Source: Maricaulis sp.
GTDB taxonomy: Bacteria; Pseudomonadota; Alphaproteobacteria; Caulobacterales; Maricaulaceae
Direction: 5' to 3'
DNA: 64,000 bases
Assembly: GCF_017642925.1 (NCBI RefSeq)
Contig: NZ_JAEPOL010000007.1
Span: forward strand, 1 to 64,000
In this document: in pieces, positions 49,661 to 53,227 of the stretch
Layout: the number at the start of each line of letters is the position of its first letter
Position numbering within the stretch: position 1 is the first letter of the stretch
The notes under the pieces: model-generated
Database searches by the model: none
Seen by the model: only the letters and a program-made list of their open reading frames with translations
Told to the model about the DNA's origin: nothing
Translations under genes and position numbers: made by a program

Positions 49661-49916
49661 GCCTGCAGTTTCGTTCCAGACGGGCCCGCCCGTGAGTGTG
49701 CGCTGCAACACGCGGCAAGATACCAAGCCGCCAAGGAAATGCCGCCCCGGCGTGAGAACCGGTGCGCAGATGCAACAACCCGCTGCAGACTCCGGGCCGC
49801 TGCCTGAATTTCGGCTTTTTTGTCTCGCATTGGGGTCATGTTTACGCGTTTAGTGTTGTCTGTCCCGATGGGTGCCTCTCCCTCACGCGGCACCCCAGAA
49901 CGGGACGGGTTGGAAG
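49661..49916. other. Non-coding gap after the gcv operon
   Basis: No gene or recognised RNA is seen in this stretch. It should hold the promoter for the small membrane-protein gene. The region near 49835-49860 (GTTTACGCGTTTAGTGTTGTC) is the most AT-rich part and is the best place for it. Confidence 0.4.
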
Positions 49917-50222
49917 ATGGTCACGGCGATGAATGAATCCCTCAATGGATGGGCCCAGCGGAATGCCTTCGGTGCGATTGTCGTGCTGATCATCCGCACT
50001 GTCTGCGTCGCCGTCGGGCTGGCGCTGATCGCGCTCGCCGTGCCGATCGGCTTCCTGACGCCCTTCATCCCGATCGGTCTGCCGATGGGTCTGCTCGGCC
50101 TGGTGCTGGTGGCGGCCGCGTCGAAGACGCTGCACACCTATATCACCAACACGCTGCGCCGCTTCCCCTGGGTGTGGAAACGCGTCCGCTTCGCCTTCGG
50201 CGAGAAGGAACCGGCAGAATAG
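49917..50222 (+). CDS. Small two-helix membrane protein of unknown function
   Basis: The 101 aa protein has two membrane segments (residues ~19-45 and ~50-66, rich in Leu, Val, Ile) and a short basic tail (TLRRFPWVWKRVRFAFGEKEPAE). Its segment PIGFLTPFIPIGLPMGLLGLVL is a likely helix hairpin. The ATG at 49917 has GGG seven bases upstream; another ATG at 49929 is possible. It converges with hipA, 12 bp away. Function unknown. Confidence 0.75.
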   Translation: MVTAMNESLNGWAQRNAFGAIVVLIIRTVCVAVGLALIALAVPIGFLTPFIPIGLPMGLLGLVLVAAASKTLHTYITNTLRRFPWVWKRVRFAFGEKEPAE

Positions 50223-50234
50223 ATCTGCCGCCCC

Positions 50235-51536
50235 TCATTCGAATTCCAGTCTGAAACCATTGTGCGCCCGGCGTGAGAGATCGCGCGGGACCCCGGCCTC
50301 GTCGGAATACTCGTCCCAGCGCGCAGCGGCCTGCAGGATATCGTCCAGCATGCCGCGCAGCTGTGCCGGTTTGAGGTCGGCATAGCGGCCGAACTCGACG
50401 AGATCTGCGAGCGTGAAACCGTCGGTCTTTCCCGCGAGCGACATCTGGTGCTCTGACGTCCAGGGTCCGCCGGGATTATAGGCGTAGACGACGTCGAAGG
50501 CCGGTGCGAGCGACCAGTTGCCACCCTTGTCCATCAGGAAGGCGATATTCTTCACATGGTCGTCCTGATTGCGGATGACGATGTTGAGGAGGGCCCGGCG
50601 CACCATCTGCTCCATCGCCGCGCGGCCCAGTCCCAGAAGGCGCAGGGTTTCGATGGCCTGCTCATAGGCATAGGCACGCGGCTGGTTGTAGTCGAAATGG
50701 CGCATCGCCCCCAGCGACTGCATGTGCAGCTTGCCGCCGCCGGGTGTGCGATCGAAGCGCCGTGTCATGAAGTGGGCGCGGCCGCCCTCCTCGTGCAGCC
50801 GGCATTCGCTCATTTCGATCCCGGCATCCACGGCCAGACGATAGCAGGCGTATTCCAGCCGGCCATAGCCTTGCGGATCGGCGATCTCCTTGTCGGCATT
50901 GCCGCTGACCCCGTCGAACTTCAACAGCCAGTGTTCAAATCCGTCCGGCAGGTCGAGCTGGCCCGAGCGGAACGCCCCGCTATCCCGGTTCCAGGCGAGC
51001 ACGGCCTTGGCACGCGCGCCACCGGCCGAGGTGCCGACGCGCAGGATGTCCTCCATCACCCGGTGATCGTCTGTCCCGGTGAGCCGGCCTTTAACCTCCA
51101 GGCGGCTGGAGGTCATCCGGTCGGCCAGTTCGACGAGTGCGTCGATTTCCAGCGGCCGGCCGCGGCCGGACGGAGCGCTGCTGGATGGCTCGAACTCCAG
51201 CGCACCCATGCCGCGGCGGCCGGTATAGCAAAGCCGCTCAACCGGATCGAAATCCCCCGGTGCGCGGCCCTGTTCAGCGAGCCAGCGATCGATCAGCAGA
51301 TTGCCGAACTTGTCCGGCAGACTGTCGGCCAGCAGGCCGGGAAGGCCCTTGAAGGTGTCACGGGGCAGGGCGGGGAATTCGAACACGCCCGTGCGCAGCG
51401 GCATGGTCAGTGGCGCGACTTCGATCCCCGAACGGGTAAAGGCGGGGACGTATTCGAACGTACCGATCTGCCGCCGGTCGTCCCACAGCACGGCGCCGAT
51501 CCGGCGGCCCCACAGGATCACGTCGGCGCGCGTCAT
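50235..51536 (-). CDS. hipA: HipA-family serine/threonine kinase toxin
   Basis: The 433 aa protein has the HipA layout: an N-terminal domain (~1-120) with GVFEFPALPRDTFKGLPGLLADSLPD-type sequence, the phosphate loop VGTSAGGARAKAVLAWN (~167-183), Lys206 in HWLLKFDG, the catalytic loop NQDDHVKN (N323, D325, H327, N330) and the second metal Asp in APAFDVVYAYN (D348). In E. coli the HipA kinase phosphorylates glutamyl-tRNA synthetase; the target here is unknown. Its start overlaps the hipB stop (ATGA). Confidence 0.93.
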   Translation of the reverse strand: MTRADVILWGRRIGAVLWDDRRQIGTFEYVPAFTRSGIEVAPLTMPLRTGVFEFPALPRDTFKGLPGLLADSLPDKFGNLLIDRWLAEQGRAPGDFDPVERLCYTGRRGMGALEFEPSSSAPSGRGRPLEIDALVELADRMTSSRLEVKGRLTGTDDHRVMEDILRVGTSAGGARAKAVLAWNRDSGAFRSGQLDLPDGFEHWLLKFDGVSGNADKEIADPQGYGRLEYACYRLAVDAGIEMSECRLHEEGGRAHFMTRRFDRTPGGGKLHMQSLGAMRHFDYNQPRAYAYEQAIETLRLLGLGRAAMEQMVRRALLNIVIRNQDDHVKNIAFLMDKGGNWSLAPAFDVVYAYNPGGPWTSEHQMSLAGKTDGFTLADLVEFGRYADLKPAQLRGMLDDILQAAARWDEYSDEAGVPRDLSRRAHNGFRLEFE

Positions 51537-51895
51537 GTCTCGTCAGTCTCGTCGCCCCAGGTCCAGGGCGTATCGGGTTCTTCGGCGCGGTGCCGCACCC
51601 GCTGCCGCGGCGCCTGTGCCGTGCTTCTCGTGTCGAGCGGGCTCACTGTGGCGTCGGGGATGATATCCAGCAGGCGGTGGTCGAGATCGAGGGCGCGGAG
51701 CAGGCGGGCAAACGTATCCAGCGTGCCGTTCCCGTCGGCCTCCAGCCGGCGGAGGGTGCGCGCGGAAATGCCGGCTCTGTCGGCAAGCTCTTCCTGCTTC
51801 AGCTGCCGTGATATCCGGTAGGCTTCCATTCTGAGGCCCAATTGCCCCAGCAGGCTGGAGATCGGGCCCGTGTCAGTCTCGTCCAGAACGGACAT
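51533..51895 (-). CDS. hipB: HipB-family antitoxin, HTH regulator
   Basis: The 120 aa protein has an XRE-type helix-turn-helix, LGLRMEAYRISRQLKQEELADRAGISARTLRRLE (residues ~18-52), shown as QLKQEELADRAGISARTLRR. The C-terminal 45 residues are disordered in appearance and end TPWTWGDETDET; in E. coli HipB a C-terminal Trp inserts into HipA, so the two Trp here may do likewise. The ribosome site AGAGGA lies in operator 1. Four palindromes upstream are likely its binding sites. Confidence 0.9.
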   Translation of the reverse strand: MSVLDETDTGPISSLLGQLGLRMEAYRISRQLKQEELADRAGISARTLRRLEADGNGTLDTFARLLRALDLDHRLLDIIPDATVSPLDTRSTAQAPRQRVRHRAEEPDTPWTWGDETDET

Positions 51896-52020
51896 AATTG
51901 TCCTCTAATCGCCGATTGAAACGATAAACGGACAAATATGTCCTTTTACTCGAGATGTCAATAACCGGACAAAAATGTCCGTTGAAGCTGCTTGACAGCG
52001 ATAACGGGACAAATTTGTCC
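51890..52020 (-). promoter_or_regulatory. hipBA control region: four palindromic operators and promoter
   Basis: Four 14 bp palindromes share GGACA-N4-TGTCC: GGACATAATTGTCC (51890-51903, over the start codon), GGACAAATATGTCC (51930-51943), GGACAAAAATGTCC (51967-51980) and GGACAAATTTGTCC (52007-52020). Start-to-start spacings are 40, 37 and 40 bp. A promoter on the minus strand reads TTGACA (51956-51961), 17 bp, then TATTTG (51933-51938); operator 2 covers the -10 box. This resembles, but does not copy, the four-operator layout of E. coli hipBA. Confidence 0.85.
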
Positions 52021-52035
52021 GCTTTTATGCGTGGG

Positions 52036-52070
52036 CAAGAAAAAGCCCGCGGGAGACCCGCGGGCTTTGC
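52036..52070 (-). terminator. Terminator of the atp Fo operon
   Basis: AAAGCCCGCGGG-AGA-CCCGCGGGCTTT is a perfect 12 bp stem. On the minus strand it is followed by TTTTTCTTG, a good T tract, 23 bp after the atpF stop. Confidence 0.92.
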
Positions 52071-52092
52071 AATCTCGAAATTCAAAGAGAGC

Positions 52093-52659
52093 CTAGTTCA
52101 GCTGTTCGCCAACGGCCTTGATGTCGGCATCGACGATCTTGTTCAGATCGGTCTTCTTCAGCTTGGTCTTCAGGATTTCCTCGGCCGCGCTGGCCGCCAG
52201 CTCGGCGGCCGCAGCCTTCACCTCGGCAGCGGCGTGAGCCTCGGCCTGGGCAATACGCTGCTCGGCAAGCACCGTGCGGCGCTCCAGGCGCTCGGTCATG
52301 TCCTTGCGCGCTTCCGCCTTCAGCGTCTTCGCTTCGGACTTGGCCTGGGCGATAATGGCCTCGGCCTCGGCCTCGGCTTCGCGCTGCTTGCGCTGATAGG
52401 AGGCCAGCATTTCCTGGGCTTCCTCACGCAGGCGCTTGGCTTCTTCCAGCTCCGACTTGATCGCATCGGCGCGGTCGTCCAGCGTCTTGGCAATCGTCTT
52501 GTGGACGCCGAAATAACCCAGCACCGCGAAGAAGGCGATGAAGGCCAGGAAGGCGTAGAAGGTCGGATCCGACGGCTGGGCCGCGAACCATTCACCCGAG
52601 AACAGGGCCGGGCCGTGGCTGGTAGCACCGTGAGCGGCGTCTTCAGCGAACAGGGTCAT
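52093..52659 (-). CDS. atpF: ATP synthase Fo subunit b
   Basis: Part of the peripheral stalk that holds F1 to Fo. The 188 aa protein has one membrane helix (residues ~33-52, TFYAFLAFIAFFAVLGYFGV) followed by a long Ala/Glu/Lys-rich coiled coil. It is the last gene of the Fo operon; its start is two bases from the stop of the b' gene. The F1 genes are not in the window. Confidence 0.93.
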   Translation of the reverse strand: MTLFAEDAAHGATSHGPALFSGEWFAAQPSDPTFYAFLAFIAFFAVLGYFGVHKTIAKTLDDRADAIKSELEEAKRLREEAQEMLASYQRKQREAEAEAEAIIAQAKSEAKTLKAEARKDMTERLERRTVLAEQRIAQAEAHAAAEVKAAAAELAASAAEEILKTKLKKTDLNKIVDADIKAVGEQLN

Positions 52660-52660
52660 C

Positions 52661-53227
52661 TTATGCCTCCTTCGCCTTGATCAGGCCGTCCACCGTCTTG
52701 CCGGCATCGGCTTCGGTGATTTCGACACCCGCCAGCGCTTCGACAGCGGCCGCCGTGGCGGTCGCCGCGATACCGCGGACTTCGGCGAACGCCTTGTCCT
52801 TGGCCTTGCGGATGGCAGCCTCGGAGGCTTCCTGCTTGGAGGCCAGCTCGGCTTCCACTTCAGCAGTCTCCTTGGCGATCTCGGCATCGAGCGCCTTGCG
52901 CGTATCGGCCGCAATCACGTGCGCCTTGGCACGCGCTTCGGCCAGCGCCTTCTCATAGGCTTCACCCGCGGCTTCGGCATCGGCCTTGGCCTGGGCAGCA
53001 GCATCGAGATCGTCGGCGATACGGTCGCGACGGTCTTCGATCGTCGTCTTGATCTTCGGCAGGATAAAGCGATCAAGCGCGACGTAGAGAATCACGAAGA
53101 AGATCGCCAGCCAGAAGAGCTGGGACGCGAAATAGGTCGGGTCGAACGGCGGGAACACAGCTTCCGCAGCGCCGTGCGCTGCTTCGGCCGCGTGCTGTGC
53201 GACGTCAGAATGCGGTGCATGCGTCAT
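52661..53227 (-). CDS. ATP synthase Fo subunit b'
   Basis: The second peripheral-stalk subunit, typical of photosynthetic bacteria and alphaproteobacteria. The 188 aa protein has an Ala/His-rich N-terminus, one membrane helix (DPTYFASQLFWLAIFFVILYVALD, shown as LFWLAIFFVILYVALD), the RFILPKIKTTIEDRRDRIADDLD junction and a coiled coil to the end. Starts 79 bp after the stop of atpE, with a hairpin between. Confidence 0.93.
   Translation of the reverse strand: MTHAPHSDVAQHAAEAAHGAAEAVFPPFDPTYFASQLFWLAIFFVILYVALDRFILPKIKTTIEDRRDRIADDLDAAAQAKADAEAAGEAYEKALAEARAKAHVIAADTRKALDAEIAKETAEVEAELASKQEASEAAIRKAKDKAFAEVRGIAATATAAAVEALAGVEITEADAGKTVDGLIKAKEA

Follow-up and report, generated by a model that had tools for sequence, protein, structure and literature searches.

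Four regularly spaced palindromes upstream of hipBA in a Maricaulis genome: a putative HipB operator array with conserved outer spacing

The hipBA locus and its four palindromes

The DNA analysed (hereafter the window) is a 64-kb stretch from Maricaulis sp. that carries hipB and hipA on its minus strand. The hipB gene (51533-51895) encodes a 120-aa HTH_3 protein predicted to be both antitoxin and repressor, with a recognition helix at residues 45-54 in the structural model and a C-terminal PWTWGDE motif. The hipA gene (50235-51536) encodes a predicted HipA-family Ser/Thr kinase toxin of 433 aa with an NQDDHVKN motif. The N-terminal Couple_hipA domain and the HipA_C domain (Pfam scores of 70.1 and 164.6 bits, both above cut-off) are present in this single protein, and the hipBST division of the kinase into HipS and HipT is absent at this locus. 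The hipA ATG overlaps the hipB stop codon (ATGA), with hipB directly upstream in the same predicted operon. Both genes are as the original prediction described them. With a one-piece HipA kinase, an HTH antitoxin gene upstream and candidate operators matching HipB, the locus has the features of a predicted type II toxin-antitoxin module of the hipBA kind.

Within 49872-53227, hipBA is bordered by the atp b/b' genes on one side and by a small gene adjoining gcvP on the other. A GC-rich inverted repeat followed by a T-run (52040..52070, minus strand), just upstream of the most distal palindrome, was read from the sequence as the putative terminator of the upstream atp operon; it is absent from a separate listing of terminator-like sites. 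The Maricaulis loci L088, L089 and L090 have the atp genes and the small gene in the same flanking positions, and L091 (also sampled as L009) does not; gcvP beside the module is visible among relatives only in L007, which is the L090 locus with longer flanks. The hipA products of L090 and L091 are 76% and 72% identical to that of the window. The window hipA was found in 6/19 Maricaulis genomes, including its own, and in 6/16 of the genomes that were at least 90% complete, with a copy in G011 of only 48% identity. There was no match at E 1e-60 in 13/19 genomes of the genus, and the hipBA module is therefore accessory.

Upstream of hipB, four exact GGACA-N4-TGTCC palindromes were identified between 51890 and 52020. 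The distal site, O1 (GGACAAATTTGTCC; 52007..52020), has its dyad between 52013 and 52014 and is the first site in the fitted array. It is followed by O2 (GGACATTTTTGTCC, in the minus-strand reading; 51967..51980), O3 (GGACATATTTGTCC, minus-strand reading; 51930..51943) and O4 (GGACAATTATGTCC, minus-strand reading; 51890..51903), at distances of 40, 37 and 40 bp, exactly as had been predicted. At 10.5 bp per turn, these spacings correspond to 3.81, 3.52 and 3.81 turns. The near-integral spacing that had been proposed does not hold for the middle gap, which is half-integral at 3.52 turns. An outer TTA, at offsets 9-11 from the dyad, flanks O3 on both sides and O1 and O2 on one side each; O4 lacks it.

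A candidate -35 box, TTGACA (51956..51961, minus strand), lies between O2 and O3 and was the top-scoring -35 in a promoter prediction based on hexamer weights. A candidate -10 box, TATTTG (51933..51938, minus strand), follows after 17 bp and is located inside O3. The predicted TTGACA-N17-TATTTG promoter, with its -10 under one of the sites, is thus present as a pair of hexamers, with a weak -10 box that matches TATAAT at only 3/6 positions. The scoring favoured an alternative at this position, CATATT with a 15-bp spacer, and a separate listing of promoter-like sites named neither hexamer. That listing gave one promoter-like match on the plus strand (51870-51898, 9/12), pointing away from hipB. 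The candidate ribosome-binding site AGAGGA (51901..51906, minus strand), read from the sequence, overlaps the left arm of O4. The hipB ATG begins one base after the O4 dyad, and the site, which also covers part of AGAGGA, stands over the start codon and ribosome site as had been claimed.

The exact GGACA-N4-TGTCC pattern occurs four times in the 64-kb window, at O1-O4 and nowhere else there; with up to two mismatches, 41 matches were counted versus 28.3 expected. Genome-wide (3.61 Mb), there were ten exact core matches, at O1-O4 and at six other places, versus eight occurrences of the reversed control pattern. All six core sites away from hipB have G or C in the spacer. When the spacer was restricted to A/T (GGACA-WWWW-TGTCC), O1-O4 were the only sites in the genome and the control gave none; with one mismatch there were six extra sites, versus four for the control.

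The genome search for other HipB targets, which had been put forward as a check, was run in the genome of origin and returned no A/T-spaced site beyond O1-O4. The six other core sites were rejected as further targets, given their G/C spacers and a count at control level; the four that were inspected all lie within stop-free stretches of at least 450 nt. A reading of the palindromes as a genome-wide repeat was likewise rejected, the A/T-spaced sites in the genome being confined to hipB. In the 18 other Maricaulis genomes, exact sites occurred only in G001 and G012, as two scattered single copies each, and both of these genomes are without a match to the window hipA at E 1e-60. Widespread sites unlinked to hipB had been named in the original prediction as counting against it; the genome of origin has no A/T-spaced ones outside hipB.

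Conservation of the spacing in related hip promoters

The locus sample comprised the best 80 of 588 confirmed relatives from a scan of genome contigs, together with matches in 101 relatives, and palindromes recurring upstream of hipB were sought with no letters specified. Excluded were L005, L006 and L087 (copies of the window), L007 (the same as L090), L009 (the same as L091), and L039 and L047, which were too short; L061 was too short for the exhaustive search. In a pair test, the best lag was 40 or 41 bp in 24/89 sampled loci versus 6/267 shuffles. A free fit of four sites outscored all 12 of the locus's own shuffles in 74/89 sampled loci and did not do so in 15/89, and 128 of its 267 neighbour spacings were 40 or 41 bp versus approximately 10 expected. 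An exhaustive four-palindrome search was then used, in which the outer spacings ranged from 24 to 57 bp and lay within 1 bp of each other and the middle gap ranged from 24 to 80 bp. The best array had outer spacings of 40/41 in 72/88 sampled related hip promoters, compared with 2/90 and 2/90 for control regions inside hipA and 2/82 for those further upstream. In the remaining 16/88 regions, a 40/41 array was not the best.

The middle gap is less uniform. Among the 72 arrays, it was 35-38 bp in 36, 45-50 bp in 27 and a doubtful 24-29 bp in four, with single arrays at 59, 64, 69, 75 and 79 bp. The two common values, near 36 and near 47 bp, are about one helical turn apart. Removal of the four arrays with doubtful gaps left 68, which represent 53, 39 and 16 HipB clusters at 80, 65 and 50% identity, respectively. 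A maximum-likelihood tree was built from 67 of the corresponding HipA proteins (L097 was incomplete). On this tree, the middle-gap class changed 12 times versus 24.5 when shuffled, and the supported branches force at least seven changes of the short class and at least eight of the long class; the middle gap has switched repeatedly. The outer spacing is 40/41 in all rows of the tree, but the rows were chosen for that, and the unselected figure is the 72/88 given above.

The last operator occupies a particular position relative to hipB. An in-frame hipB start codon lies exactly one base after the O4 dyad in 52/68 arrays (45 ATG, 6 GTG and 1 TTG), and is the first start of the frame in 37 arrays. 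An ATG at this position was found in 49/68 arrays at O4 versus 10, 18 and 15 of 68 at O1, O2 and O3, respectively. The last operator is therefore built around the antitoxin start codon, in the window likewise. In 47/68 arrays, a -10 was predicted no more than 20 bp from the O3 dyad. The mean promoter score was 8.6 versus 7.4 for shuffled sequence, barely above it, and the prediction provides only modest support for a promoter at O3.

Most of the 68 arrays are from Pseudomonadota. The eight labelled otherwise (Verrucomicrobiota, Balneolota, Gemmatimonadota, Omnitrophota, Melainabacteria, Electryoneota, Actinomycetota and Chloroflexota) are all from metagenome bins, on which the likely spread of the array over phyla rests. 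The array of the Chloroflexota bin (L080) is nearly identical to that of a Rhodobacteraceae bin (L070), consistent with recent transfer or mis-binning.

Within Maricaulis, an apparent absence of the array from the sister genomes was rejected as an artefact of a scan that demanded exact five-base arms, since the copies there are degenerate. The array search returned 40-35-40 for L088, 41-35-40 for L089, 40-35-40 for L090 and 40-36-40 for L091; L090 differed in the free four-site fit (40-45-30). A later class-wide search of 289 genomes returned seven loci besides the genome's own. The five that were new and full-length were tested, a set that excludes the partial L161 and also L162, at 35% identity. 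The array was present in 2/5, or in 2/3 with hipB beside hipA, a weaker result than in the first sample. The array of L159 is clear (41-45-41), that of L157 is weak (41-37-41, with sites the same as those of L058), and L158 falls short of a 40/41 array. The HipA relatives at L156 and L160 (59% and 47% identity) have no hipB-like frame directly upstream of hipA, which suggests solitary kinases or kinases with another partner.

Operator letters and the HipB recognition helix

Read outwards from the dyad, the most frequent letters in 544 half-sites were T-A-T-G-A-C-C-C-A-T-T-A. A core resembling CATATATG lies innermost, offsets 4 to 8 are variable, and a TTA forms the outer part at offsets 9 to 11. 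The association between 96 HipB columns and the operator offsets was analysed in 39 HipB representatives below 65% identity, with ancestry handled by clustering only. The top three of the 96 columns were residue 46 (offset 5, z of 12.4), residue 45 (offset 7, 11.6) and residue 49 (offset 7, 10.3), and a second run of the test returned the same three in a different order. With decoys shifted 20 bp either way, the maximum z was 5.2 and 4.8 and the three residues ranked 9 to 71. The signal persisted with 13-bp shifts, as expected for positions that still overlap the operator. Among the 16 representatives below 50% identity, residue 49 ranked third, residue 46 fourth and residue 45 eighth. A HipB alignment (A1) contained the window protein and 44 of the 57 listed, near copies having been omitted by eye.

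The third helix of HTH proteins is the recognition helix. In an AlphaFold model of the window HipB (mean pLDDT of 80.6, pTM of 0.58), residues 45, 46 and 49 are predicted to lie in helix 45-54, the third helix. Among the solved folds matching this model are the HipB proteins of P. fluorescens, E. coli and Shewanella, the last two taken from operator-DNA complexes; the titles among the matched structures include HipA-HipB-O2-O3 and HipB-O1-O2. Particular helices accompany particular letters: RTLRR occurs mostly with G(G/T/A)CC, KRT(V/L)ER with CGA, and SRSTxxR mostly with GCATTA or ACATTA. Within Maricaulis, the window, L088, L089 and L090 combine RTLRR with GTCC, while L091 combines RSTLMR with GCTACATT. 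The operator letters thus covary with three residues of the putative recognition helix of HipB. At the level of sequence, the predicted control of hipBA by a HipB operator array is strongly supported by the uniqueness of the sites at hipB, the layout shared by 72/88 promoters and this covariation of helix and letters.

At the other end of the protein, a W-x-W motif is present within the last 30 residues in 66/68 HipBs, including that of the window (tail at 51536-51595, minus strand). It is likely the counterpart of W88 of E. coli HipB, which is reported to dock onto HipA (PMC3376134).

Proposed mechanism and alternative explanations

We infer that the four palindromes are operators of HipB, that HipA bridges neighbouring complexes, that occupancy represses hipBA and that the pairs 40/41 bp apart cooperate; as a whole, this reading is very probably correct. 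Each GGACA-WWWW-TGTCC site would be bound by a HipB dimer whose recognition helix reads the variable letters with residues 45, 46 and 49, and HipA is probably attached to the operator-bound HipB. O3 covers the candidate -10 region and O4, about 40 bp downstream, the ribosome site and start codon, so that their occupancy would block hipBA transcription. O1 and O2 would form a second, upstream pair that reinforces repression. The fixed 40/41 bp within each pair may place neighbouring HipB-HipA complexes in contact, leading to cooperative binding, and the promoter would be freed when HipB is lost. Given the constancy of the outer spacing (40/41 bp), cooperative binding or looping, as originally suggested, is plausible; these spacings, at 3.8-3.9 turns, are not strictly in phase. 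Bridging by HipA of neighbours 40 bp apart is a reasonable guess, since a distance close to 40/41, namely 39 bp, separates the two central sites in E. coli.

Alternatively, the operators may be bound independently, the dispersed sites raising the local repressor concentration and the spacing reflecting the fixed geometry of the promoter (-35, -10 and start codon), with no contacts between complexes. The positions of O3 at the predicted promoter and O4 at the start codon are in keeping with this, as the distance between those features is itself constrained, and the authors of work on the three-site operators of Legionella hipBST raise intermediate occupancy, unlike the cooperativity of E. coli (PMC10653801). 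However, in most arrays O1 and O2 lie upstream of the predicted promoter, and yet their 40/41 bp is retained while the middle gap varies by 10 bp or more; E. coli HipB is reported to bind its four operators cooperatively (PMC3376134). Independent binding is the less likely account, with a modest chance of being right. Inheritance of the 40/41 layout by descent, and its spread by gene transfer with no selection on spacing, would explain why some arrays are near copies of one another (an erythrobacter/sphingomonad group, and L070 and L080). It is improbable as a general explanation, since the operator letters, the middle gap and the hipB sequence have all diverged, as the HipB clusters indicate, and the changes of middle-gap class on the tree took place among arrays that kept the outer spacing.

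It is highly improbable that another regulator binds the sites, or that they are terminator hairpins or mobile-element repeats with HipB a bystander. Terminator-like flags were raised for O3 on both strands and for O1 on the plus strand, but the stems have only five pairs and 2/3 flags are on the strand opposite hipB; the hairpin reading was rejected on the stems. A role for the sites apart from HipB is at odds with the confinement of the A/T-spaced sites to hipB, with letters that follow the HipB helix and with a layout that accompanies hipBA in relatives.

A more far-reaching reading of the spacing, to which we give an even chance, is that of an operator ruler. In this clade, HipA-bridged HipB would require exactly 40/41 bp between the two operators of a pair; the two pairs would be kept in phase by whole turns (near 36 or 47 bp), and the final operator would be built on the antitoxin start codon. 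The letters could then drift freely because the three recognition-helix residues drift along with them, giving each lineage a private, insulated repressor, and the rulers of other clades (27-27-27, 28-39-28 and about 50-50) would keep the hipBA systems of one cell apart. The code of residues 45, 46 and 49 would allow the specificity of a HipB to be predicted, and might account for the coexistence of several hipBA pairs in a cell without crosstalk. A spacing fixed within 1 bp while the letters change offers a direct handle on the higher-order HipB-HipA-DNA complex. In E. coli hipA7, interference with HipA dimerisation in the higher-order complex is thought to raise HipA activity (PMC7029023).

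Comparison with known hip systems

Multiple HipB operators are already known from E. coli, Caulobacter and Legionella, and E. coli has four (PMC3376134). In searches of the open-licence literature, we found no description of a 40/41-(36/47)-40/41 layout, of an operator at the start codon or of a recognition-helix code; the hipBA operator work found there concerned E. coli, C. crescentus and Legionella hipBST, and none of it the distant HipA group of the window. Clade I includes the hipBA modules studied experimentally in E. coli K-12 and C. crescentus (PMC8262856). The window HipA is only 20.8% identical to that of E. coli, and for this reason is probably outside clade I.

The E. coli K-12 hipBA locus, used as a positive control, resembles that of the window in having four palindromes ahead of hipB, grouped as two close pairs, in the HTH fold of HipB and in the hipB-hipA order, and its hipBA is reported to be autoregulated (PMC3376134). 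The search returned 28-39-28 for E. coli, versus 40-37-40 for the window, and the E. coli TATCC-N8-GGATA sites differ in both arms and spacer. There is no TATCC-N8-GGATA site on either strand of the window and the aligned recognition-helix residues differ, in agreement with the distinct specificity that had been proposed. E. coli has no operator over the hipB start codon, where the window has O4. The E. coli HipB-HipA complex is reported to bend its operator by 70 degrees (PMC3376134).

The hipBA1 and hipBA2 promoters of Caulobacter crescentus similarly contain several identical inverted repeats, which their authors interpret as operators of HipB with a spacing compatible with the E. coli complex; unlike the window, three sites are reported (PMC7029023, PMC8545095). 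Legionella hipBST also has evenly spaced operators bound by HipB, but there are three sites with 53-bp gaps and six-base arms, and the system consists of three genes with a split kinase (PMC10653801).

The genome of the window encodes further hip loci. A second hipBA (contig C18) likewise consists of hipB and hipA preceded by four palindromic sites (hipB start at 791), but these are of the TATGATC...GATCATA type at 27-27-27 and its HipA is 43% identical to that of E. coli. Of the 23 relatives of this HipA listed besides its own locus, 21 were tested; the 27-bp spacing was present in 8/21 (L124, L127, L128, L129, L132, L133, L138 and L139), some with three good sites only, and no 27-bp array was found in the other 13. 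A hip locus on C30 has three TTTAxCG...CGxTAAA palindromes exactly 50 bp apart, 299-399 bp upstream of hipA; among seven tested relatives of its HipA, L148 has a pair 50 bp apart and there was nothing convincing in the other six. No convincing array was found at the C9 paralogue. Spacing therefore looks like a trait of each Hip clade.
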